From the IMG/VR virus record IMGVR_UViG_3300032050_000440, positions 1 to 34,611 of that record: DNA of 34,611 bases. One strand, 5' to 3'. Below are positions 19,967 to 34,611 of this stretch, piece after piece. The position numbers and the translations under genes were made by a program. The notes below the pieces were generated by a model. The model was not told the DNA's origin. It searched no databases and saw nothing but the letters and a program-made list of their open reading frames with translations. Numbering within the stretch: position 1 is the stretch's first letter; each line of letters begins with the position of its first letter. The DNA is from a virus.

Positions 19967-22900
19967 ATGGCTCTAGTATCACCAGGCGTAGAAGTAACAG
20001 TAATTGACGAGAGTCAATATATCCCTTCCGCTGTTAACACAGTACCGTATTTTTTAATCGCTACTGCACAGAACAAAGTAAGTTCAGACGGCGTGACAGT
20101 TGCCGCTGGAACATTGGCAGCTAATGCTAATAAGACGTATCTAATCACAAGTCAGCGAGACTTGGCCGCCACATTTGGCGTGCCATTCTTCTATCAGACC
20201 ACAACAGGTACACCAATCAACGGCTACGAACTCAACGAGTACGGCTTGTTGGCAGCGTACAGTTCATTGGGTATTACAAATCGTTGTTATGTACAACGTG
20301 CCAATATTGACTTGTCAGAATTAACTGCCAGCTTGGTTCGTCCAACAGGCAACCCCAATGACGGTGATTACTGGTTAGACACATCCACAAGTGTTTGGGG
20401 CATCCAGGAGTGGAATCAAACAACCAACACATTCACAGTAAAAACTCCCATTGTTATCACAGACACTGCAGATGTTGTTAACTTTAGCGCCGGCAATTAC
20501 ACACCAAATGCTGACATAGGCAGCATTGGCGATTACGCAATCTCTGCAGTAGCTACGTCAAACCCTGGCTACTACAAAAATGCATCAAATGCCTGGGTAT
20601 TAGTTGGTGGAGATGCGTGGAAAGCGTCTTGGCCTACAATTACTGGAACAGGAACTCCTACTAGCCTTACTGCTGGTAACATTATTGTGATCAATGGCAC
20701 TACTGTTACTGTTTCTGCTACCAACACATTGGCTCAGCTGTCTACCGATATCAATGCCGCTGCAATTCCAGGAGTTACTTCGTCAGTTGTATCAAGCAAA
20801 TTACAACTAACTGCAAACAGCCTCACAACCCCTGACATTAGTAGCTTGGTTGGCGGTGCAATTGATATTGATATTACTAGTACATCTGCATTGTTACTAG
20901 CTCTTGGCATCCCTGCCGGCGTGTACTACGCACCAACATACTTGCCTTCATACAGTTATCAAGCACCTCGCTGGGCAGTGGGACAACCGGTTACTGCAAC
21001 TAACTGGCCATCTCCTACAGGCTCTGTATGGAACAACATGAGTCCTGCCAACAGCGGTGTATCTCTTAAAGTTAAGAAATATAGTTCAGCATTGGGCACG
21101 TTTGTCAGTCAAACAACAGGCACTTACAGCAACCCCACAGCGGCAATTTATGCACTAGATCCCACAGGCGGCGGAAAAAATATTCCAGTTGGTACTACGG
21201 TTGCAATCTGGGACGCTATATCTTATGGTGGCGCAGATCCATACATGGCCTTGGAAATTATTGAGCGTAGCTCACTTGGACCTACTGTAATCACTGGATC
21301 TACAAATACACCTGGACCGTTTGTAAATGGCACCACTTTCCGCATCACAGGAAGTCAGACAGATGGTACTAGCCAAGGGGCCAACGTAACTATAAACGGT
21401 ACAAATACTGCTGCTTTTATTACAGCGGTAAGCTCGGCCAACATCACCAACGTCAGCGCCAGTGTAAACTCATCTGGAGCAATTGTGATGACTCACTCCA
21501 CTGGTGGTAACATGAGTCTGCAAAACCTTACTGGAACTCCTGTAACTTTAGCTGGATTCACAGTTGACACCCCTGGATGCAGACCAGCATTTAGAACAGC
21601 AAACGCTATTGCGTTGACAAATTGGCAGTCAACCCCAGAGTTTACCTACACTGCTAGTACCACAGCACCTGATCAAGACCCAGCAGATGGTCGATTGTGG
21701 TATTACAGCACAGTAAGTGATGCAGATATCTTGATTCAAAACGATGGTGAATGGGTTGGATATAGAACTGTTAACCCAGATGTACGTGGGTTTGATTTAA
21801 CTGAAACAGACCCTGCAGGACCACTGATTGCTGCCACTGCTCCTATTGAACAAAGTGATGGCACTGCATTAGTATATGGCGACTTGTGGATTGACACCAG
21901 CGACCTAGAAAATTATCCTAAACTATATCGTTGGGAATTAGTAACTGGTGTTGCACAGTGGGTGGAAGTTGACACTACTGATCAAGTCACACAAAACGGT
22001 ATCTTGTTTGCAGATGCACGTTGGGCCGGCAATGGCACAACTGACCCTGTGATGGATCCTTTCCCAACCATTGAAAGTTTGTTGACTAGCAGTTACCTGG
22101 ACCTAGATGCTCCTAACCCAGATCTATATCCTGAAGGCATGTTGTTGTTTAACACACGTCGGTCAGGATACAATGTCAAGAGCTTCCAAAGTGATTACTT
22201 CAATGCCGAATCATATCCTGATGACACATTGCCAACAGTCAAGAGCACTTGGCTCACAGCTAGTGGTAACCGCGATGATGGTGCCATGTGGTCTGGTCGC
22301 CAAGCCCAACGTCAGTTGATTGTGCAAGCCATGAAAGCAGGTATTGACACCAGCGAAGCAGCACGTGAAGAACAAAATCAGTTCAGCTTGATCGCTGCCA
22401 CAGCTTATCCAGAGTTGATTCCTAACATGGTTGCACTCAGCAATGAGCGCAACAACACATTGTTTGTAGTGGGCGACACGCCAATGCGCTTGCCTGCAAC
22501 AGGTACAGATCTTGCCGCCTGGGCCACAAACAACGGTGGGCTAGGTTTCCGAACAGAAGACGGCTTAGTAACCGCTAGCCAGTACTTGGGTACATTCTAC
22601 CCCAGCTGCCAGACTACAGACTTGTCAGGCAACACAGTGGTAACAGCACCAAGTCACATGATGATGCGTACTATTATCCGCAGTGATGCAGTGAGCTATC
22701 CATGGCTAGCACCTGCTGGTACACGTCGTGGTGTTGTTGACAATGCTATTGCTATTGGTTATATTGATGCAGCCACTGGTGAATTCCAGCAGTTGAACAT
22801 GGGACAAGGTCTACGTGATGTGTTGTATGAAAACGACATCAACCCAATTACCTTCATCCCAGGTGTGGGTATTGTTAACTTTGGTAACAAGACCACAACA

Positions 22901-23242
22901 AGTATTACCAGCGCACTGGATCGTATCAACGTTAGCCGACTGGTTGCGTTCTTGCGTGGTAGACTTGAAGAGATTGGCAAACTGTATTTGTTTGAACCCA
23001 ATGACGATATTACTCGTGCTGAAATCACCAACACAGTCAACAGCTTGATGATTGACTTGGTGGCCAAGCGTGGTATCTATGACTACTTGGTGGTTTGTGA
23101 CTTGAGTAACAATACTCCAGCACGTATTGACCGCAACGAGTTGTGGCTGGATATTGCTATTGAACCAGTGAAAGCAGTGGAGTTTATCTACATTCCATTG
23201 CGTATCAAGAACACTGGCGAAATCTCAGGACAAGCATCCTAA
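19967..23242 (+). CDS. gp18: Contractile tail sheath protein gp18
   Basis: A 1091-residue tail sheath. The N-terminus (MALVSPGVEVTVIDESQYIP) and the last 250 residues (SDAVSYPWLAPAGTRRGVVD, PITFIPGVGIVNFGNKTT, SRLVAFLRGRLEEIGKLYLF, IDLAIEP-type strand near the end) are typical of contractile sheaths; those parts form the polymer interface that contracts to push the tube into the host. T4 gp18 has 659 residues, so this protein carries over 400 extra, apparently as surface insertions between about residues 125 and 670. These hold GDYWLD (133-138), GRLWYY (about 575) and GDLWID (about 638), each followed by an aromatic strand. The start at 19967 follows AAGGAA and a perfect late promoter; a TTG at 19943 was rejected. 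A hairpin follows the stop. Confidence 0.92.
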   Translation: MALVSPGVEVTVIDESQYIPSAVNTVPYFLIATAQNKVSSDGVTVAAGTLAANANKTYLITSQRDLAATFGVPFFYQTTTGTPINGYELNEYGLLAAYSSLGITNRCYVQRANIDLSELTASLVRPTGNPNDGDYWLDTSTSVWGIQEWNQTTNTFTVKTPIVITDTADVVNFSAGNYTPNADIGSIGDYAISAVATSNPGYYKNASNAWVLVGGDAWKASWPTITGTGTPTSLTAGNIIVINGTTVTVSATNTLAQLSTDINAAAIPGVTSSVVSSKLQLTANSLTTPDISSLVGGAIDIDITSTSALLLALGIPAGVYYAPTYLPSYSYQAPRWAVGQPVTATNWPSPTGSVWNNMSPANSGVSLKVKKYSSALGTFVSQTTGTYSNPTAAIYALDPTGGGKNIPVGTTVAIWDAISYGGADPYMALEIIERSSLGPTVITGSTNTPGPFVNGTTFRITGSQTDGTSQGANVTINGTNTAAFITAVSSANITNVSASVNSSGAIVMTHSTGGNMSLQNLTGTPVTLAGFTVDTPGCRPAFRTANAIALTNWQSTPEFTYTASTTAPDQDPADGRLWYYSTVSDADILIQNDGEWVGYRTVNPDVRGFDLTETDPAGPLIAATAPIEQSDGTALVYGDLWIDTSDLENYPKLYRWELVTGVAQWVEVDTTDQVTQNGILFADARWAGNGTTDPVMDPFPTIESLLTSSYLDLDAPNPDLYPEGMLLFNTRRSGYNVKSFQSDYFNAESYPDDTLPTVKSTWLTASGNRDDGAMWSGRQAQRQLIVQAMKAGIDTSEAAREEQNQFSLIAATAYPELIPNMVALSNERNNTLFVVGDTPMRLPATGTDLAAWATNNGGLGFRTEDGLVTASQYLGTFYPSCQTTDLSGNTVVTAPSHMMMRTIIRSDAVSYPWLAPAGTRRGVVDNAIAIGYIDAATGEFQQLNMGQGLRDVLYENDINPITFIPGVGIVNFGNKTTTSITSALDRINVSRLVAFLRGRLEEIGKLYLFEPNDDITRAEITNTVNSLMIDLVAKRGIYDYLVVCDLSNNTPARIDRNELWLDIAIEPVKAVEFIYIPLRIKNTGEISGQAS

Positions 23243-25947: not shown

Positions 25948-26544
25948 ATGACGCGGAAAATATATCTTTATAAAAAGACTCACAATGTAACAGGATTGCA
26001 ATACCTTGGCAAGACTGTTTCTATTGATCCTTACACATACCCAGGCTCGGGCATATACTGGTCTAGACATTTAGAAGTACATGGAAACAATGTTGCTACA
26101 GAAATACTTCGCGAATGCCAATCAGAAGATGAACTTAAAGAGTGGGGATTGTATTACAGCAAACTCTGGAATGTAGCAGAAAGCGATCAGTGGGCAAATT
26201 TAATAGAAGAAGCAGGCCCCGGGGGAGCATGGTCGGTTGAGTCAAAACAAAAATTAAGCAACACTAAAAAGCAAGAGCTAGCAAAATTAACTCCCGAAGA
26301 AAAAACAGCAAGAATGAAAAATTCTTGCTGTGCCCCAGACAGTTATACCCCTGAACGAATCGCTAATATGAAAAAGGGCATGACTGGTAAAAAGAAAACT
26401 AAAACACCTAAGCTGTTGGCTGCAATCGAAGCAAGAAAAGAACGAAGCATACAAACTATGCTCAAAGCCGCAGACAACCACCGTGGAAAAACCTGGAAAC
26501 TTATTGATGGCAAACGAGTGTGGCTAACAAAGGAGATGTTATGA
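25948..26544 (+). CDS. GIY-YIG homing endonuclease-like protein
   Basis: A 198-residue basic protein. The N-terminus IYLYKKTHNVTGLQYLGKT is a GIY-YIG core (IYLYK for GIY, YLGKT for YIG). It continues with YPGSGIYWSRHLEVHG and TEILRECQSEDELKEWGLYY, the Arg and Glu region of the fold. SVESKQKLSNTKKQ is a NUMOD3-like DNA-binding element, and the C-terminus GKTWKLIDGKRVWLTKEM resembles the tail of T4-type homing enzymes. These cut related phages lacking the gene and spread it by repair. Its ATG is 15 nt after the gp4 stop and its stop overlaps the gp16 ATG (ATGA). Lys-rich, with AAA, AGA and GCA codons more frequent than in the virion genes, it fits a mobile insertion. Nuclease activity is inferred. 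Confidence 0.82.
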   Translation: MTRKIYLYKKTHNVTGLQYLGKTVSIDPYTYPGSGIYWSRHLEVHGNNVATEILRECQSEDELKEWGLYYSKLWNVAESDQWANLIEEAGPGGAWSVESKQKLSNTKKQELAKLTPEEKTARMKNSCCAPDSYTPERIANMKKGMTGKKKTKTPKLLAAIEARKERSIQTMLKAADNHRGKTWKLIDGKRVWLTKEML

Positions 26545-27029
26545 CCAGAAAGTTAGAGGAGTTGTTTGACCTACCATCTTCTGTTGAAATTGAAACAGAA
26601 AATGAAATCCCTACCATTGCAGAAACACGGGCGCAACTGGCTGTGATAGATGATGCCATTGACAAGATTGATTCAGCATTGCCGGCAGTGCGAGATCTTG
26701 ACGCCAGTGATGGCGAGATGGATGAACTTGCAGACTTGGCCAAGGACAGCTACAAAGATCTCATGGATCTTGGCATGCAGGTAGACTCACGCTTTGCCAG
26801 TGAGATATTCAATGTAGCAGGCACCATGCTAGGCCATGCCATTACAGCTAAAACAGCCAAAATGAACAAGAAACTCAAGGTTATTGATCTACAGTTGAAG
26901 AAAATGCGACTGGATCAACAGACACCCGAGGAACAACAACTAGCCACAGCACAAGGACAAGTGTTGAATCGCAACGATTTATTGGAACGTTTGCTCAAGG
27001 GTAAAGACCAAAATAACGGAAAAGTATAA
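26541..27029 (+). CDS. gp16: Terminase small subunit gp16
   Basis: A 162-residue, mainly helical acidic protein resembling T4 gp16 in layout: an acidic N-terminus (LEELFDLPSSVEIETENEIP), a long central coiled coil (LAVIDDAIDKIDSALPAVRD to MQVDSRFASEIFNVAGTM), and LGHAITAKTAKMNKKLKVID, equivalent to the T4 [20 protein letters not shown] region. gp16 rings recognise DNA ends and regulate the gp17 motor during packaging. The ATG at 26541 overlaps the stop of the GIY-YIG gene and has GGAG 5-8 nt upstream; a longer frame to 26520 has no ribosome site. Unlike T4, gp17 is not next but about 7.1 kb downstream. Identification rests on size, helices and position. Confidence 0.72.
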   Translation: MTRKLEELFDLPSSVEIETENEIPTIAETRAQLAVIDDAIDKIDSALPAVRDLDASDGEMDELADLAKDSYKDLMDLGMQVDSRFASEIFNVAGTMLGHAITAKTAKMNKKLKVIDLQLKKMRLDQQTPEEQQLATAQGQVLNRNDLLERLLKGKDQNNGKV

Positions 27030-27049: not shown

Positions 27050-27658
27050 ATGAAACCATTTGCAAAATATCTCGCAGAAAGTGAACGTACATATCAATAC
27101 CGCATCAAAGTGGTAGGTGATATTCCCCCAGGCTTCTTCAAATCATTTGAAGAAAAAATGGATCAATTTGACGTTGTCAAAATGTCAACTCCCAAGAGTA
27201 CACCTGTACGTGCTGTGATTCCTGACTTTCCTGCTTTCCCCAATCAATCTGTCACAAGAGTTGATGTAGAGTTCAAGTACCCTGCTATTGAACCACAGAT
27301 TAAACAAATTGCTAGATTATTGGGACTAGACGAAAATCGTATTGTGATGATGACCACACCATACGAAGAAAGTCTTGATGTAGAGTCAGCAAAGATTACA
27401 GATCAAAACAAAGATCTATTAGACGATCCTGACTATCCAGCAGATGACAAAATGCAAAAGGATCTCAAGAAAGATTATTCTGCAGACCCATACAACCATG
27501 TGGTGTTGAAGAATGCCTATCGTTCAAATTTCACAGTAGCCGGCGGCAAAACTCCTCCTGCTAAAACTTCTAATGATTTGCCAATGGGCACAACCAGCCC
27601 AATGACCAATATCAAGAGACAACCCAAGCCTGCAACTGGCGCCAAACCAAGAGGATAA
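27050..27658 (+). CDS. Candidate capsid-internal protein with targeting peptide
   Basis: A 202-residue protein. Its first ten residues, MKPFAKYLAE, match the capsid-targeting peptide of T4 internal protein III (MKTYQEFIAE) at M, K, aromatic, aromatic, aliphatic, A and E. In T4 the prohead protease gp21 cuts after that Glu. The body starts with a ferredoxin-like beta region (TYQYRIKVVGDIPPGFFKSF, VTRVDVEFKYPAIEPQIKQI) and ends in a disordered, Pro/Lys-rich tail (NIKRQPKPATGAKPRG). Family members occur in aquatic T4-like phages without known function, as far as I recall. The gene has its own perfect late promoter and leads the block that includes the 680-residue charged protein. Packaging in the head is inferred from the peptide. 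Confidence 0.72.
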   Translation: MKPFAKYLAESERTYQYRIKVVGDIPPGFFKSFEEKMDQFDVVKMSTPKSTPVRAVIPDFPAFPNQSVTRVDVEFKYPAIEPQIKQIARLLGLDENRIVMMTTPYEESLDVESAKITDQNKDLLDDPDYPADDKMQKDLKKDYSADPYNHVVLKNAYRSNFTVAGGKTPPAKTSNDLPMGTTSPMTNIKRQPKPATGAKPRG

Positions 27659-27662
27659 CCCA

Positions 27663-29705
27663 ATGACATTTTTCTATGACTTAAACAAACGCCTGGCTGC
27701 TGTCAACGACGCACCAGAATCCAAACAACTCAACGAGCGTGACATGAGTCGTGCTGCCAAAGGCTACGAAAAGTACGGTAAACAAGGCATGGAAGCCTTG
27801 GCCAAGGCTGGTCGTGAAGGCAAGGCGTTGGACCCTATTCGTAAAAAGTATGACAAGTATGACAATGAAGTAGACGAAGGTGCTTATCAAGGCGGTCCAG
27901 ACAAGAGTCAGATCCCTGCTGTGAATCGTCCTGGCAACAGAATGACCTTGCAAGACCTAGACAAAGAGCGCACACAGAGCCCTACTAGTCCTGAAGGATT
28001 AAAACGTGCTCAACAACGCTTGGGTCAACAAAGTCCTATCAAAGAAAAAATGAATCCTGCCAAGGCCAAGAGTTTTGCTGCCTTAGCACCGCCAAAAGAC
28101 AAGATTACTTTTGCCGACAAGATTGCTGGTGCCAAAAAAGAAGTTGACGAAATGCTAGGCGACGTTGCTGCCGAAGCCATGAAGTCAGCACTTAGTGGCA
28201 AGCAAAAAACACTGGATAAAAACGACAACGGTCGACTAGATGCCAATGACTTTGCTATGTTACGCAAAGGTGGCAAACAAAAAACTGCCGAAGAAGATGA
28301 TAACAACCCGTTCACAAACTACAAGAAGCCACGTGCTGACAAACCACGTGTGGGAGATGTAGAACACGGCTCCAAGCACGATATCAAGCACACTGCAACT
28401 GGTCGCAAAGTAACACGCCGTACAGATGACCAAGGCAACTCAGTTGGATCAGACACTGATGACGAAGGTAACGCACAAGAAAAACGCAGTCGCGGTCGTC
28501 CAAAAGGAGCCGCCAAAGGTACCGAACGTGTGACAGCTAAAGCAATCAAGCACAAAGGTGAACGAGAGAAAAAAGGATCCGCTGGATCAGTATCCGACTC
28601 AGGCAAAGCACTACAAGGATTCATGATTGGTAACAAGCCAAAAAGTGAACCAGGCAAAGTAAGTGTCAGAAACAAAATGAAAGAAGGCGATGCTGATCCA
28701 ACAGACAATGATTCAGGCGATTTAAAAGCAGCCATGGCATTGTTGAAGAAAGCTGGCTACAAAGTTTCTAAGTCTGCAGAAAAAGAAAGCACAGTTGATC
28801 GTGACGACCATGCTGAAAAAGCTGGTAAAAAAGTAGCAAAAGACATCGAGTACGATGAAAAGAAAAAAGATGGCATACATGGCAGCAAGCGTGGTGCTGA
28901 AGATGACAAAGCAGAAAAAGCCGGCAAGAAAGTAGCCAAGGACATTGAGTACGACGAGAAAAAGTCCAAGAAGAAAGAAAAAACCGAAGAAGCAGGCGGC
29001 TCTGGCACACCCACAGCGTCAAGTGGTTTCAGTTACGGCCAAGGCATTTATGATTCATTGAATCGCGATCTTGAAAACGCTATCACAGAATCAATGAGCC
29101 AACTTGATGAGTCAATGAGCATCAACATGAGCGACAGTACAGAAGGCGGCAAGAGCCTAACTATCACTGCCAGTGACGAAGATGCATTGAAGTTGGCAAC
29201 ATTGTTGAAGTCAGCAGGCCTAGGTGGCGGCGATAGCGAAGGGTATGGCGGGTCAGGTTACAAGTCAGCATGCGGTTGCGGTACTCCTGATTGCTCATGT
29301 GGCGAAGAAGAAATTGACGAAGTGTCAATGAACGAGCCAGACTACCCTACCAACACAGAAACAGGTAGCTCAATGCAGTACAGTGGCGGATTAGATGGTC
29401 CTAAGTCAACAGGACAATCAACGTTGACAGGTGGCGGCATACCAAATCTGGATGCAGATCGTCAACACAGCTATGCCGAAGCAGAAGAAGATGCCTTACA
29501 CCGCATGATGGAAATGGCCGGTGTTAAGAAAAAAGAAGTTGATGAAGAAAAAACCGCCGAAGGTAACTTGTTTACCAAAGGCCTAGAAGACGACAATGTC
29601 AAAGTTGGTGACAAAATTCCTGGAACCAATGCTATCAAGAAAAAAGACATCGACGAAGGCATCTTGGCCAGTACTCGTGCTTTATGGAAAAAATACCAGG
29701 ACTAA
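27663..29705 (+). CDS. Charged structural protein with EF-hand and AT-hook
   Basis: A 680-residue, highly charged and mostly disordered protein. Residues 185-196 (DKNDNGRLDAND) are a canonical EF-hand loop with Asp/Asn at positions 1, 3, 5, 9 and 12 and Gly at 6. Residues 275-283 (RSRGRPKGA) are an AT-hook that binds the minor groove of A/T-rich DNA. An 18-residue Lys/Glu segment occurs twice (384-401, 417-434), and a CGCGTPDCSCGEEE stretch near residue 537 could bind metal. LNER at residues 23-26 fits a prohead-protease cut site (LxE). It ends DEGILASTRALWKKYQD. Lying among candidate internal proteins after gp16, it may be a scaffold-like or DNA-condensing head protein; this is inference. 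AACCCA before the ATG is a poor ribosome site. Confidence 0.75.
   Translation: MTFFYDLNKRLAAVNDAPESKQLNERDMSRAAKGYEKYGKQGMEALAKAGREGKALDPIRKKYDKYDNEVDEGAYQGGPDKSQIPAVNRPGNRMTLQDLDKERTQSPTSPEGLKRAQQRLGQQSPIKEKMNPAKAKSFAALAPPKDKITFADKIAGAKKEVDEMLGDVAAEAMKSALSGKQKTLDKNDNGRLDANDFAMLRKGGKQKTAEEDDNNPFTNYKKPRADKPRVGDVEHGSKHDIKHTATGRKVTRRTDDQGNSVGSDTDDEGNAQEKRSRGRPKGAAKGTERVTAKAIKHKGEREKKGSAGSVSDSGKALQGFMIGNKPKSEPGKVSVRNKMKEGDADPTDNDSGDLKAAMALLKKAGYKVSKSAEKESTVDRDDHAEKAGKKVAKDIEYDEKKKDGIHGSKRGAEDDKAEKAGKKVAKDIEYDEKKSKKKEKTEEAGGSGTPTASSGFSYGQGIYDSLNRDLENAITESMSQLDESMSINMSDSTEGGKSLTITASDEDALKLATLLKSAGLGGGDSEGYGGSGYKSACGCGTPDCSCGEEEIDEVSMNEPDYPTNTETGSSMQYSGGLDGPKSTGQSTLTGGGIPNLDADRQHSYAEAEEDALHRMMEMAGVKKKEVDEEKTAEGNLFTKGLEDDNVKVGDKIPGTNAIKKKDIDEGILASTRALWKKYQD
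28812..28964 (+). repeat. Twice-repeated 18-residue segment, synonymously diverged
   Basis: Two 54-nt segments (28812-28865, 28911-28964) encode the identical peptide AEKAGKKVAKDIEYDEKK, yet 11 of 18 codons differ, all synonymously. The protein repeat is therefore old and kept by selection. Confidence 0.9.
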
Positions 29706-29880: not shown

Positions 29881-30167
29881 TGGCCAACGTTTATACAACA
29901 CTTTCAAACGCAACAGTTTACACAGACAAGTTGCAGATCTCCACAGGAAACACAGCAGTCACATGTCAAGTGTATGCTGTGGCCCTGGGCACAGCCAACG
30001 CTGTTGGCAACTTGTATTCTGTGGCTATTAACATTCCTGCCAACACAGTTTATGAAACATATTCTGGCGCTGGTAACAAAGTTACTATCACAGGTTCAAA
30101 CTGGACAGCACTAGAACTAGGCACAGCAAGTTCTGCTACTGCAGGTGTGATTGGCGCAGGTAGCTAA
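29880..30167 (+). CDS. Small beta-rich protein
   Basis: A 95-residue Thr/Ala/Val-rich protein (MANVYTTLSNATVYTDKLQI) with alternating strands typical of a small virion beta sandwich (YSVAINIPANTVYETYSGAG, KVTITGSNWTALEL) and one possible Cys. No charged clusters, signal peptide or known motif. Its ATG and its stop overlap the neighbouring genes (TAATG at both ends), so it is translated with the two MRAxEFITE proteins that follow. Composition resembles the small beta protein at 2848, though without clear homology. Likely a head or tail decoration protein. Confidence 0.6.
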   Translation: MANVYTTLSNATVYTDKLQISTGNTAVTCQVYAVALGTANAVGNLYSVAINIPANTVYETYSGAGNKVTITGSNWTALELGTASSATAGVIGAGS

Positions 30168-30532
30168 TGAGAGCACAAGAGTTTATCACTGAACAAGATG
30201 GCAAAATAGGCAAACGTAGACAAGTTGCTACTGTGGGCCTTAATCTGTTTAGTGATGCAGAACGTACCAGCAGTGATTATACTCTTAATCGTGTGATGAT
30301 GGCTGTGGCCATGGCCGACGGAAGCAATGCACCTATCAAAATGGACAGCAAAAGTTGGGTAGGCAAAAAACGTGCGGCATTTCCTTATACTGAAATTGAA
30401 CAACAAATGCTCAAGCAGGCTTTCAAGGCTGCAGGCGCAAGTCATATAGATTTAAATCACGGTGACTTGGACTCGGAAGAACACCCAGCAGTGAACACCA
30501 CCAGTCCCATGCAAGGGTTCAAAGGCTACTGA
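30167..30532 (+). CDS. Candidate internal protein, MRAxEFITE family, copy 1
   Basis: A 121-residue protein starting MRAQEFITEQ, which resembles T4 capsid-targeting peptides (EFI-x-E, then a predicted cut after E9). The mature part has YTLNRVMMAVAMADGS, then KMDSKSWVGKKRAAFPYTEI and EQQMLKQAFKAAGA, and ends TTSPMQGFKGY. I recall relatives in many aquatic T4-like phages (LNR-MMA-AMADG and SP-KGFKGY signatures), all unassigned. The next gene encodes a shorter-core paralogue. TAATG overlap with the preceding gene and TGATG with the next show tight coupling. Head localisation is inferred from the N-terminus only. Confidence 0.7.
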   Translation: MRAQEFITEQDGKIGKRRQVATVGLNLFSDAERTSSDYTLNRVMMAVAMADGSNAPIKMDSKSWVGKKRAAFPYTEIEQQMLKQAFKAAGASHIDLNHGDLDSEEHPAVNTTSPMQGFKGY

Positions 30533-30915
30533 TGCGAGCACGTGAGTTTATCACTGAGCAGGCTGACTTGCCCGAAGAAACCAAAGAACCCATGAAGAAT
30601 ACATTTGTTCTTCCAGGGCTGAGTGCATCGGATCCTTATAAAAACTATCGCTTTGGTGTGGCTATGGCTCGTGCCAGAAGCGACCAAGCAACAGACGCAG
30701 TGAACGATTTTCGACCCAACTGGTCTGCAGAAACTGCATTTGGTGAACATGCTGTGATTGTAGGATTCAGCAATAACGTTGACCCTGTAATTGATGCCGC
30801 ATTAAAAATGACTAAGACACCTGGCGGCAAAAAGCCAGTGAGTACAGCAGCCAGTGAAGAGCCTAAATTTGTAGGCACACAAAGCCCAGTTAAAGGGTTT
30901 GAAGGATACAAATAA
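30532..30915 (+). CDS. Candidate internal protein, MRAxEFITE family, copy 2
   Basis: A 127-residue paralogue of the preceding protein: the same N-terminal peptide with one change (MRAREFITEQ), a NYRFGVAMARARSDQ segment matching NRVMMAVAMADGS, and the same ending (TQSPVKGFEGYK). The middle differs (DFRPNWSAETAFGEHAVIVG, DPVIDAALKMTKTPGGKKPV). The ATG overlaps the stop of copy 1 (TGATG) and the stop overlaps the following fibre ATG (TAATG). Conservation at both ends with a diverged centre suggests that the targeting peptide and C-terminal tag are needed for a shared process, such as packaging, while the payload differs. Confidence 0.7.
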   Translation: MRAREFITEQADLPEETKEPMKNTFVLPGLSASDPYKNYRFGVAMARARSDQATDAVNDFRPNWSAETAFGEHAVIVGFSNNVDPVIDAALKMTKTPGGKKPVSTAASEEPKFVGTQSPVKGFEGYK

Positions 30916-31802
30916 TGGCCAATCCACCACCACCATACGACAACATCACAGGCATTTCACGTGCCGCAATGAAGGACAATGCTCAAGAGACATTGGCAAA
31001 CTACAACGGCAATGCTAGACCAGGTGAACTGGTAGTAGATCAAACCACAACTATCTTGTACATAGGCAATGCACTAGGCGAACTCACAGCAGTGGCCACA
31101 CCAGGCGGAGCAACTACCTGGGCACTGTTAGGCAATAAAGATGGCGCCGCAGGACCTACTGCAATAGCACTGGGTCAAAATGCTGGACTTGACGGTCAGG
31201 CTAATGCAGCTATAGCCCTAGGTCAATATGCCGGTCAAGGCGGTCAAGGCGGTGCAGCCATTTCGATAGGTCTGAATACTGGTGGCAACACATTTCAAGG
31301 CTCGGGTGCTATAGCCATTGGTTCATCGGCTGGGTATGATGCACAGGGTGTCAACGCAGTGGCCATTGGATTAAGTGCCGGGCTGAGCTTTCAGGGCGAA
31401 GTTGCAGTTGCCATTGGGGACTCAGCTGGAGAAAATAATCAAGGCAATGCCGCAGTGGCTGTTGGTGCTGGTGCCGGTACCAACACACAAGGTATCCAGG
31501 CCGTAGCCATTGGTACAGATGCCGGTGCTACCTCGCAAGCAAATCGTGCTGTGGCAATTGGTTACTTGGCTGGCAGTACCGCACAAGGCAATTCAGCAGT
31601 GGCCATTGGTTACTATGCTGGTGAACTGAATCAGGGCAACAATTCAATCATCATCAATGCTACAGGTACAGACCTACAACAAACCACTGCTAACACATTC
31701 ACAGTGAAACCTGTGCGCAACGGTGGTTCCAGTGGACTGCCTGCGGGCTTTTATCAAATGGCATACAACCCAACCACAGGTGAAATTGTTTACTACACTT
31801 AA
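30915..31802 (+). CDS. YadA-head-like repeat fibre protein
   Basis: A 295-residue protein. After an N-terminal domain (residues 1-80: ARPGELVVDQTTTILYIGNA) come eleven AVAIG-type repeats of 16 residues, as in the left-handed beta-roll heads of trimeric adhesins such as YadA. The C-terminus (TFTVKPVRNG, then GFYQMAYNPTTGEIVYYT) is a cap I recall from other phage and viral fibres. It likely forms a trimeric head or tail adhesin. The ATG overlaps the preceding stop (TAATG). It is separated from the main fibre cluster by 24 kb and lies next to candidate internal proteins, so a capsid fibre is possible. Confidence 0.8.
   Translation: MANPPPPYDNITGISRAAMKDNAQETLANYNGNARPGELVVDQTTTILYIGNALGELTAVATPGGATTWALLGNKDGAAGPTAIALGQNAGLDGQANAAIALGQYAGQGGQGGAAISIGLNTGGNTFQGSGAIAIGSSAGYDAQGVNAVAIGLSAGLSFQGEVAVAIGDSAGENNQGNAAVAVGAGAGTNTQGIQAVAIGTDAGATSQANRAVAIGYLAGSTAQGNSAVAIGYYAGELNQGNNSIIINATGTDLQQTTANTFTVKPVRNGGSSGLPAGFYQMAYNPTTGEIVYYT
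31161..31656 (+). repeat. Eleven 48-bp-period repeats (AVAIG motif)
   Basis: Repeats start near residues 83, 99, 115, 132, 148, 164, 180, 196, 212, 228 and 244 of the protein: a strict 16-residue (48-nt) period with one 17-residue unit. DNA copies are diverged. Confidence 0.85.
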
Positions 31803-31811
31803 CATTTTAAT

Positions 31812-32249
31812 ATGAAAAAACTTTTAACACTTTTACTCATTGTGCCGTGTCTAGTACTAGCACAACCCAAACAAAAACCCGGCGTTACCTATGACGCTGT
31901 TATTACTCGTGTGATTGACGGAGACACAGTGGGTATTCAAGCCACTTGGCTGCCAGCACCGCTTAAACCGGAACTCAGCATTCGTGTGTTTGGTGTGGAT
32001 ACTCCCGAAAAAGGACACCGAGCACAGTGCCCAAGTGAAGCGCAACGTGGCGAAGCAGCCACAGCATTTACAAAACAAGCAATTGCCAACTCACAAAAGC
32101 GTCAAATTGTACTCATGGACTGGGACAAGTATGGCGGCCGTGTGCTAGGCGATGTACTACTAAATGGACAAAGCCTGCGTGGTATGTTGATTGCCAACGG
32201 ATTTGCTCGTGAGTACTACGGCGAGGCCAAAACTTCCTGGTGCCAGTGA
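31812..32249 (+). CDS. Secreted SNase-like (thermonuclease-type) nuclease
   Basis: A 145-residue protein with a signal peptide (MKKLLTLLLIVPCLVLA, cut likely before Q18) and a staphylococcal-nuclease fold. Catalytic and calcium residues are in place: VIDGDT (D36), RVFGVDTPE (R58, D63, T64, E66), RGEA (E81) and GGRVLGD (R110), equivalent to D21, R35, D40, T41, E43 and R87 of the Staphylococcus enzyme. The enzyme cleaves DNA and RNA outside the cytoplasm. It could degrade DNA in the periplasm, such as rival phage DNA, or released host DNA. VPC is not a proper lipobox, so secretion rather than lipidation is expected. It begins 9 nt after the fibre stop; no strong ribosome site. Confidence 0.87.
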   Translation: MKKLLTLLLIVPCLVLAQPKQKPGVTYDAVITRVIDGDTVGIQATWLPAPLKPELSIRVFGVDTPEKGHRAQCPSEAQRGEAATAFTKQAIANSQKRQIVLMDWDKYGGRVLGDVLLNGQSLRGMLIANGFAREYYGEAKTSWCQ

Positions 32250-32255
32250 TCCGCC

Positions 32256-32263
32256 TTTAAATA
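32256..32263 (+). promoter_or_regulatory. Late-type promoter in a palindrome
   Basis: TTTAAATA (7 of 8 to the late octamer), five bases before the ATG at 32269. It is the centre of an imperfect palindrome (GCCTTTA, AA, TAAAGGC). A leaderless mRNA is expected. Confidence 0.5.
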
Positions 32264-32268
32264 AAGGC

Positions 32269-33411
32269 ATGTCAGACTCTTTCTATTGTGCCGCACCTTG
32301 GCGTGGCCTGCATATCAATCCCCGTGGTGATGTCAAAACCTGCTGTGCAGGTGATCCCAACATGCTGGGCAACTTGAACACCAACAACATCATTGAGATT
32401 CTCAACAGTGATCTCATGGCAGACATAAGAAATGATCTGTCACAAGGTCGAGCACATAAGTATTGTAGCAATTGTGTACAAGCTGAACGCTTTGGAGCAG
32501 ACTCAGAGCGCAAGTGGCACAATGATCTCAACCAAGATATCAATTACGCGACTGCCGGAGACAAATACCATTACCCTGTAATTGTAGATGTGCGATGGAA
32601 TACCACCTGTAACCTTTCATGTAACTACTGTAGTGAATGGGCCAGTTCAAAATGGTCCGCACTCAAAGGTATTCCATTCAAGTCTGGCAGTCGCCCCTAT
32701 TATGAAGATGTGTGTGACTTTATTGCGGCACATCACGAACATATTAAAGACGTTGCCCTAGTAGGCGGAGAGCCCTTACTGCTTCCTGAGAACGAACGTC
32801 TACTAGATGTTATCCCAGAAGATTGCACAGTTACACTAATCACCAACATGAATGTGGATCTTGACCGGAACAAGATCTTCAAGAAACTGGCACAACGTAA
32901 GAAAGTTGGCTGGAGCATGAGCTTTGACAACATAGACAGTCGCTTTGAATATGTGCGTTATGGCGGCGAATGGGCACAAGTCAAACACAACCTTAACAAG
33001 GTCAAAGACCTGTTCAAGCAAGGACACTGGGGCGGCATTCATGCTGTGTACAACATCTACAATGCCACACGCATCACAGAATTCCGTGAATGGGCCTCTG
33101 AACAAGGTGTAACTGTATTGTGGCAAAACTTGTTCCAACCCGACTACTTGGACCCATTCCTACACGGCCCTGAAGTTGCGGCATTAGCAGCCGCAGAGAT
33201 TGAACGTTTCTATGCCACAGGACTTGCTACACCTGCTGAGCGACAATTCTTTGACAATGCCTTGAACATGTATCGTGCTGTGACTCAAGAACGTGCAGGC
33301 ATCACTCGCAAGTTCAAGCAACACATTGTTGAGATTGAAACTCAGTACCACAAAGATCAAGCTGGAAAATTTGTGCAGTTGTGGCCAGAGCTGGCACATT
33401 TGATCAAATGA
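32269..33411 (+). CDS. Radical SAM protein with N-terminal SPASM/twitch-like domain
   Basis: A 380-residue radical SAM enzyme. The core has C114-x3-C118-x2-C121 (TTCNLSCNYCSEW), then VALVGGEPLLLPENERLLDV and TLITNMNVDLDR. Before it, residues 5-70 read FYCAAPWRGLHINPRGDVKT, CC, LGNLNTNNIIEILNS and KYCSNC, the signature of SPASM/twitch auxiliary iron-sulfur domains (C7, C25, C26, C66, C69), which normally follow the core. Aquatic T4-like phages carry related twitch-type proteins of unknown substrate, as far as I know. The start at 32269 was chosen because the Cys-rich domain begins there and a late-type octamer is 5 nt upstream; the open frame to 32191 overlaps the nuclease. Its TGA overlaps the SGNH start (ATGA), suggesting a paired function. 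Confidence 0.85.
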   Translation: MSDSFYCAAPWRGLHINPRGDVKTCCAGDPNMLGNLNTNNIIEILNSDLMADIRNDLSQGRAHKYCSNCVQAERFGADSERKWHNDLNQDINYATAGDKYHYPVIVDVRWNTTCNLSCNYCSEWASSKWSALKGIPFKSGSRPYYEDVCDFIAAHHEHIKDVALVGGEPLLLPENERLLDVIPEDCTVTLITNMNVDLDRNKIFKKLAQRKKVGWSMSFDNIDSRFEYVRYGGEWAQVKHNLNKVKDLFKQGHWGGIHAVYNIYNATRITEFREWASEQGVTVLWQNLFQPDYLDPFLHGPEVAALAAAEIERFYATGLATPAERQFFDNALNMYRAVTQERAGITRKFKQHIVEIETQYHKDQAGKFVQLWPELAHLIK

Positions 33412-34160
33412 AACCCCTACATCGATCAACAATCTATGCAGGGCAACAACTAGAATGGTTTGATCCTGACTCGCGAGAAAACTATCTTGCACACCTTAAA
33501 CGCCCTGAAAAGCGCAAACTACTAGAGCAGTTTGGATGGGCAAATTTATCTACTGAAGATCCCGTTACATATTGTTTCAACAGTGAAGGGTTTAGAACTG
33601 CAGAATTTGATCAGCGTGAAAACTTCGTTGCCATTGGTTGCAGTTTTACTGCTGGAATAGGTATTCAAGAACATCTTCGGTGGACAGACCTAGTTAGTAA
33701 TCAACTCAATTTGCATTGCTGGAATCTTGGGGTAGCAGGCTCGGGCAGTGATACCTGTTATAGAATACTTAAACATTGGCTGCCCGTACTGAAACCAAAG
33801 TTTGTGGTGTTCTTAGAACCAAGGCCCAACAGGATTGAATTACATCAAGAAGTCAACGAGCCACCGCACCTAATCAATTGGACCTATAACGTAAAGCCTT
33901 GGACTGATGGAATTTATGTTAAAATGTGGCTGGAAAATGATGAAAACATGCGATTACATGCTGAAAAAAATCGTGCGGCCATACAGTGGTACTGTCATGA
34001 AAATGCCACACCTGTGATCATGTTCAACCCTACCGACTATCTTGATCTTGTGGAAGACAAACGAGAACTAGATCTTGGTCGAGACTTGCTACATTTAGGA
34101 AAGAAAAACAATCAAGCCTTTGCTGATGTTGTGTACAAACGTATAATTAATACATTATGA
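33408..34160 (+). CDS. SGNH/GDSL hydrolase-like protein
   Basis: A 250-residue protein with SGNH-hydrolase blocks: AIGCSFTAG (nucleophile S79), WNLGVAGSGSD (Gly block II), FVVFLEPRPNR in place of block III (GxND) and DLLHLGKKNN (block V, DxxH). The family hydrolyses or transfers acyl esters on sugars, lipids or peptides. The block III Asn is not evident at the usual spot, though N141 may substitute, so activity is uncertain. It is translationally coupled to the radical SAM gene (ATGA) and to gp17 (ATGA). A role in modifying host surface sugars or a small product of the radical SAM enzyme is guesswork. Confidence 0.72.
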   Translation: MKPLHRSTIYAGQQLEWFDPDSRENYLAHLKRPEKRKLLEQFGWANLSTEDPVTYCFNSEGFRTAEFDQRENFVAIGCSFTAGIGIQEHLRWTDLVSNQLNLHCWNLGVAGSGSDTCYRILKHWLPVLKPKFVVFLEPRPNRIELHQEVNEPPHLINWTYNVKPWTDGIYVKMWLENDENMRLHAEKNRAAIQWYCHENATPVIMFNPTDYLDLVEDKRELDLGRDLLHLGKKNNQAFADVVYKRIINTL

Positions 34161-34611
34161 GTATAAGTCCAGAAACAGTCCTTGTCAAAGCCCCGCACCG
34201 TAGGGAAACATTTACAGAAGAACAACTAACAGACTTCATGCTGTGTGCTGATCAAGACTCGGGTCCGCTGTATTTCATGGACAACTTTTTCTATATCCAG
34301 CACCCCACACGCGGCAAGATGTTGTATCATCCGTTTGACTATCAAAAGCAACTGATATACACTTATCATAACTATCGTTATTCAATCAGCTTGATGCCTC
34401 GACAAACAGGCAAGTCTACTTCGGCTGCCGGTTACTTGCTGTGGTATGCAATGTTTGTGCCAGACTCAACTATTCTAATTGCCGCGCACAAGTACACAGG
34501 TGCGCAGGAGATCATGCAACGTATTCGTTATGCATATGAACTGTGCCCCAATCATATTCGAGCAGGTGTAACCAGTTACAACAAAGGCTCAATTGACTTT
34601 GACAACGGATC
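34157..34611 (+). CDS. gp17: Terminase large subunit gp17, 3'-truncated
   Basis: The first 151 codons of the packaging motor, running off the window. It begins MSISPETVLVKAPHRRETF at an ATGA overlap with the SGNH gene. The ATPase core is clear: YHPFDYQKQLIYTYHNYRYS, then the Walker A region SLMPRQTGKSTSAAGYLLWY (T4: NLSRQLGKTTVVAIFLAHF), ILIAAHKYTGAQEIMQRIRY (T4: GILAHKGSMSAEVLDRTKQA) and SYNKGSIDFDNGS (T4: EWNKGSIELDNGS). gp17 pumps DNA into the prohead and cuts the concatemer. The Walker B and nuclease parts lie beyond the window. Confidence 0.93.
   Translation, partial: MSISPETVLVKAPHRRETFTEEQLTDFMLCADQDSGPLYFMDNFFYIQHPTRGKMLYHPFDYQKQLIYTYHNYRYSISLMPRQTGKSTSAAGYLLWYAMFVPDSTILIAAHKYTGAQEIMQRIRYAYELCPNHIRAGVTSYNKGSIDFDNG

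Follow-up and report, generated by a model that had tools for sequence, protein, structure and literature searches.

The open reading frame at positions 27,663–29,705 of the window, the 34,611-nucleotide stretch of viral DNA analysed here (IMG/VR record IMGVR_UViG_3300032050_000440), encodes a 680-residue protein of 73 kDa that is best read as a member of an unnamed family of phage head-internal or structural proteins carrying an unusual DNA-binding element, an AT-hook. We give about an even chance to the reading that this protein docks in the prohead and grips the packaged DNA with its single hook. The basis of the reading is motif conservation, predicted disorder, gene order and the LAG peptide, which is common to this protein and the gp22-type scaffolding protein of jumbo phages. 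The protein is a mosaic with a net charge of −2, and an AlphaFold model computed with 40 sequences is largely disordered (mean pLDDT 48), in agreement with the first-pass annotation, which had described a disordered, charged protein combining an EF-hand loop, an AT-hook and a cysteine-rich segment. All three motifs are located in this frame, at residues 185–196, 275–283 (RSRGRPKGA) and 537–547 (CGCGTPDCSCG), respectively. The segments of this protein, and the genes at 26,541–27,029, 27,050–27,658, 30,167–30,532, 30,532–30,915 and 34,157–34,611, lie on the plus strand.

The genome is that of a giant freshwater phage, a 300–350 kb relative of PA5oct (Arenbergviridae). The protein family is widespread and had not been named, being absent from Pfam, PHROGs and the cultured-phage entries searched. 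No Pfam family exceeded its cut-off for the 680-residue protein and no PHROG matched it at all. Searches by tblastn with the whole protein or its modules recovered no relative among the INPHARED cultured phages, one of them giving chance matches only. Hundreds of relatives occur in IMG/VR, where 212 stretches were confirmed via P0001-derived peptides and 395 via the conserved block; they belong to uncultured viruses whose contigs extend to 300–350 kb. None of the 84,980 bacterial and archaeal genomes scanned yielded a relative with the peptide patterns used, and by these patterns the family appears not to be bacterial. Family members range from 415 to 982 residues. Conservation was counted over the 69 full-length members left once near-duplicates were removed, and residues and codons were analysed in a 40-row alignment of members whose identity to the window protein is 49–93%. 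Neither RGRP nor the EF loop was part of the search peptides.

The AT-hook, KRSRGRPKGA, occupies residues 274–283 (28,482–28,511), within which RSRGRPKGA is encoded by nucleotides 28,485–28,511. RGRP is retained in 67/69 relatives and GRP in all 69, including the remaining two, and each protein carries exactly one hook. Residues R275, R277, G278, R279 and P280 are invariant in the 40 alignment rows, while the codons beneath them vary silently: R279 is encoded by CGT, CGA, AGA or CGC, and P280 by all four proline codons. Selection therefore acts on the protein. The RGRP core to which the first-pass annotation drew attention is thus under strong purifying selection, and no close homologue in the alignment has lost it. 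RGRP arises in 0.5% and [KR]xRGRP[KR] in 0.02% of 20,000 composition-preserving shuffles. RGRP was rejected as a rare signature in itself; each of three 330–350 kb genomes encodes three to four proteins with RGRP, and for this reason the case for an AT-hook rests on conservation.

HMGA-type hooks bind the minor groove of A/T DNA, and the sequence conforms to the HMGA-type pattern, a GRP core with RGRP flanked by basic residues (KRSRGRPK). As in HMGA-type proteins, the hook is canonical (KRGRGRPKG in most members) and is set within a disordered, charged chain, with pLDDT below 50 around residues 265–279 and 285–352. Unlike those proteins, this one is viral, has one hook rather than three and a charge near zero, is a mosaic of phage modules and falls below the Pfam cut-off; AT_hook had no match in the window and reached 12.8 bits in one relative (cut-off 17.4). 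The near-neutral charge and the single hook favour tethering of DNA over its condensation, and make doubtful the condensing activity that had been proposed at first.

The AlphaFold model comprises a helical N-terminal module, a beta module and a module with a helix and a beta-beta-alpha unit. The alignment delimits an N-terminal segment, MTFFYDLNKRL...QLNE (27,663–27,737), in which M1, F3, F4, L7, N8, L11, L23 and E25 are invariant. Its LNE resembles a T4-type prohead-protease site and may be a cleavage site of that kind. The most conserved block of the protein, KSFAALAPPKDKITFADKIAGAKKEVDEMLGDVAAEAMK (28,068–28,184), is helical and corresponds to the helix ahead of the EF loop. A small beta-strand module (residues 231–262; 28,353–28,448; pLDDT ~80) lies directly N-terminal to the AT-hook, and a helix plus beta-beta-alpha mini-module at residues 462–517 (29,046–29,213) is defined by both the alignment and the model. 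Between the hook and this mini-module are two copies of an internal repeat, (H)AEKAGKKVAKDIEYDEKK (28,812–28,968), which many relatives exchange for a DUF3008 module. Modules swapped at the same spot among members include KDIEYDEKK repeats, DUF3008 and other charged inserts, and the family looks built of interchangeable short modules. A fold search with the 161-residue model of residues 132–292 gave a best match with E 0.59. LxE sites are enriched 1.45-fold in the family and LxE[AGS] sites 1.9-fold; because a tail-tube protein is enriched likewise, the enrichment is unspecific and was dropped as evidence of prohead-protease processing.

The AT-hook gene is preceded by genes for the tail sheath, two tail tubes, a 119-residue protein, a gp4 head-closure homologue, a small-terminase-like protein (26,541–27,029) and a 202-residue protein (27,050–27,658). 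It is followed by small genes and then by the large terminase (TerL), of which homology reveals the start at 34,157–34,611, cut by the window end. The proximity to packaging genes that had been pointed out at the outset is thereby borne out. The same order, from the sheath to TerL, is found in PA5oct, and the TerL of relatives is 51–55% identical to that of PA5oct. The small-terminase-like gene is a putative assignment based on position and sequence pattern, its PHROG having no named function. The 202-residue neighbour is a homologue of PA5oct EST35_0202 (29.5% identity over half its length, E 3e-4), which is annotated as structural by ESI-MS/MS.

Several other genes of this region were noted. 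A 198-residue frame that starts with MTRKIYLYKKTHNVTGLQYLGKT and is homing-endonuclease-like by eye (25,948–26,544) lies between the gp4 and small-terminase-like genes; in four relatives (L111, L112, L114 and L115) only ~15 bases occupy its position. The tail sheath (19,967–23,242) has ~1,090 residues, a large part of which lies outside the general sheath PHROG. Downstream are a glycine/alanine repeat protein with weak similarity to the YadA head (30,915–31,802), whose repeats are expanded or cut in relatives, and a small nuclease-like protein between the head genes and the terminase (31,812–32,249; signal peptide, SNase-like by eye), which looks secreted and is 70–94% conserved in relatives. 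A radical-SAM/SPASM protein (32,263–33,411) is found beside TerL, an unusual location, in several relatives, at times with a second copy.

EST35_0203, which takes the corresponding slot in PA5oct, is likewise annotated as structural by ESI-MS/MS, within a mass-spectrometry set that is broad and includes metabolic enzymes. EST35_0203 resembles the AT-hook protein in lying between the 0202 homologue and TerL, in its acidic, low-complexity sequence, and in having a CxxC-type cysteine motif and two LAG peptides. The two proteins differ in that no sequence similarity is detectable between them by tblastn or hhalign, and no PA5oct protein has an RGRP or PS00018 match. No relatives of EST35_0203 were found in viral contigs. 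Homology to EST35_0203 or to gp410 of Sinorhizobium phage Phosso was rejected, given that hhalign offered no support and the likeness to Phosso was confined to a 15-residue stretch.

In the relatives, the capsid gene lies ~27–55 kb from the AT-hook gene within linear contigs, in a T4-like cluster of portal, gp67-like protein, 276-residue protein, protease, gp22 scaffold and capsid. The AT-hook protein has no homology to gp22 and is encoded outside the portal–protease–capsid cluster. Because a gp22-type scaffold is encoded separately in the relatives, the AT-hook protein is not the main scaffold, contrary to a role suggested for it in the first-pass annotation; the two share the LAG peptide and no overall similarity. 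Several database records mislabel gp22-type scaffold genes of jumbo phages (L117, L116 and L195–L199) as 'Rad50 ATPase' or hypothetical, as in Phosso, Atu_ph07 and PAC2.

Three neighbours of the AT-hook gene have conserved N-termini, MKPFAKYLAE (the 202-residue protein at 27,050), MRAQEFITE (30,167–30,532) and MRAREFITE (30,532–30,915), with variants such as MRAQEFIAE. These leaders resemble MKTYQEFIAE, the N-terminus of T4 IPII and IPIII. In T4 a leader of this kind is a capsid-targeting sequence, by which internal proteins reach the core (PMC9958956, PMC7697877). The AT-hook protein, which begins MTFFYDLNK...QLNE, has no such leader. It resembles T4 IPI–III and the prohead core as probable core cargo with leader-bearing neighbours, and differs from IPI–III in lacking the leader, in being far larger and in having an AT-hook.

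The LAG peptide of the window protein, LHRMMEMAGV, comprises residues 612–621 (29,496–29,525), 60–70 residues before the C-terminus, and matches the C-terminus of gp22. The analysis of this peptide was exploratory. The pattern, [LIVM]xx[LIMV]xx[LIM][AS]G[VIL], was derived from a weak 15-residue similarity to Phosso gp410, the protein that precedes TerL in that phage, and gp22 tails took no part in defining it. Its single occurrence among the window's open reading frames is in the AT-hook protein. In all seven jumbo phages first checked (PA5oct, Phosso, Vibrio phage 2.275.O, RaK2, Atu_ph07 and two window relatives), the gp22-type scaffold has this pattern at its very C-terminus, and the same holds for 53/53 additional gp22 contigs, most of them close relatives. 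GAP32 has the variant AKLSGM, and T4 gp22 has no LAG peptide. Within the AT-hook family, 61/69 members have LAG among their last 180 residues, a count somewhat biased by one search peptide (MMEMAGVK) that covers the site; the eight members that lack it keep the hook.

In the relative G002 (391 open reading frames), the four LAG proteins are the AT-hook protein, gp22 and two adjacent MKI-tagged proteins, and the last three carry the peptide within their final 24 residues against 0.13 expected. The MKI-tagged pair (G002 158,973–161,465; L213 13,974–16,467) starts with MKI-D-V, ends in LAG and lies beside two more MKI-tagged proteins; it possibly represents further head-internal proteins. The LAG carriers of PA5oct are gp22, EST35_0203 (twice), EST35_0235 and three less convincing proteins. 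Four of the six are labelled by ESI-MS/MS (Fisher p 0.02), an association that is no more than suggestive, since the motif was post hoc and three of the carriers look unrelated. EST35_0235 (L204 8,221–8,847), annotated by ESI-MS/MS, combines LAG with a basic C-terminal tail, KRRHKKPKKPGPKPKK, and may be functionally equivalent to the AT-hook protein. Tentatively, and with less confidence than we attach to the head-internal role itself, LAG might be a prohead address in jumbo T4-like phages, by which the scaffold tail and several client proteins would dock at one capsid, portal or scaffold site without a T4-type leader, and which this family would use to place its AT-hook inside the head, where it would organise the packaged genome.

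For the AT-hook protein we infer a location in the virion and the following course of events. The protein would enter the prohead core at assembly through its amphipathic LAG peptide, in the manner of the gp22 C-terminus, with a putative N-terminal LNE cleavage site perhaps also used, and would be kept inside the head while the scaffold goes. The single HMGA-type hook, on a flexible lysine-rich arm, would grip the minor groove of A/T-rich incoming DNA, and many one-hook copies would tether or arrange the DNA with no wrapping. In favour of a head-internal role are the conserved hook, the PA5oct-like gene order with EST35_0202 and EST35_0203 annotated as structural, the leaders of the three neighbours, the LAG peptide and the failure of the patterns used to find bacterial relatives. 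Counted against it are the match to EST35_0203 by position only, the breadth of the PA5oct mass-spectrometry set, the missing capsid-targeting leader, the unspecific LxE enrichment, the single hook and near-zero charge, the sub-threshold Pfam AT_hook score, and a LAG peptide that was noticed afterwards, lies 60–70 residues from the end and is missing from 8/69 members.

The leaders of the neighbours also accommodate an ejected internal protein, packed in the head and delivered with the DNA like the T4 internal proteins and Alt, whose hook would bind phage or host DNA for protection or early regulation. T4 IPI shields DNA after its injection, internal proteins show great diversity (PMC3012670), and a mosaic, quickly changing architecture suits a delivered effector. 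We nevertheless consider this unlikely; the T4 proteins are small and compact, the AT-hook family is mostly disordered at 415–982 residues, and an invariant, generic DNA-binding peptide suits a structural role at least equally well. Somewhat less probable still is a packaging accessory that would act with the terminase at the portal, its hook tethering concatemer DNA to the motor. The gene does sit between the small-terminase-like gene and TerL in the window and its relatives, but this position is weak evidence because the cluster also contains sheath, tube and neck genes. Moreover, GAP32 and XaC1 have no such protein directly before TerL, and both the leaders of the neighbours and the resemblance of the LAG peptide to gp22 speak for the core rather than the motor.

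The EF-hand or dockerin-type loop, DKNDNGRLDAND, spans residues 185–196 (28,215–28,250). Together with the next residue, F, it is a complete match to PROSITE PS00018, the 12-residue loop having the residues of the pattern (DKNDNGRLDANDF); of 20,000 composition-preserving shuffles, 0.6% produce such a match by chance. Searched as a profile, residues 132–292 retrieved 11 chains among PDB sequences (E 0.49–6.3), each insignificant alone and all aligned at EF-hand or dockerin-type calcium loops, and jointly these weak matches agree with that loop type. AlphaFold predicts for the same residues, at low confidence, a helix-loop-helix in which helices 150–176 and 194–202 flank the loop (pLDDT ~60–70 at best). 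The loop resembles single EF-hand or dockerin loops in its match to PS00018 and, weakly, to EF-hand and dockerin profiles, and differs in being unpaired, optional and below Pfam cut-offs (EF-hand_7, 14.0 bits against 30). It is present in 32/69 relatives and absent from 37/69; L011 and L018 (88% and 73% identity at the aligned positions, respectively) have it cleanly excised and keep the hook. Near the C-terminus of 37/69 members is another acidic loop, DxDxDG; 54/69 have one loop type or the other and 15/69 have neither.

These counts bear on the calcium-switched, DNA-condensing scaffold envisaged in the first-pass annotation, in which calcium at the EF loop would alter DNA binding by the hook. 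The PS00018 match, the PDB chains, the predicted helix-loop-helix and the 54 members with some loop are in its favour. The loss of the loop from close relatives that keep the hook, the kind of finding named there as telling against it, means that by this criterion calcium is not the core function, and gp22 already exists as a separate scaffold; we regard this reading as very improbable. A metal loop may still be useful, although its position and presence drift across the family. The four-cysteine cluster CGCGTPDCSCG (29,271–29,303) was also singled out initially. A CxxC or CxC followed by CxC is conserved in 62/69 relatives, a count slightly biased by one search peptide (CGEEEIDE) that touches the region, and CxC...CxC never occurs in 20,000 composition-preserving shuffles. 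The acidic loops and the cysteine cluster are candidate metal-dependent extras that would vary between phages.

The least probable reading is that of a late-made host-takeover or assembly factor that is not in particles, for which a neighbourhood with many auxiliary genes (nuclease, radical-SAM) can be cited, but the location among head and tail genes is constant in all relatives checked and EST35_0203, the positional counterpart in PA5oct, is annotated as a protein seen by mass spectrometry.

In the open-access literature we found no AT-hook in a phage head protein and no EF-hand in virions, and the structure of the T4 core is unresolved (PMC9958956). Little is known of how very large phage genomes are arranged within the capsid, or of what selects non-scaffold proteins for encapsidation. 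The single AT-hook conserved in this abundant jumbo-phage family is a candidate for a capsid tether that prefers particular DNA sequences, and the LAG peptide is a candidate for a short docking signal that would link the scaffold with its clients.
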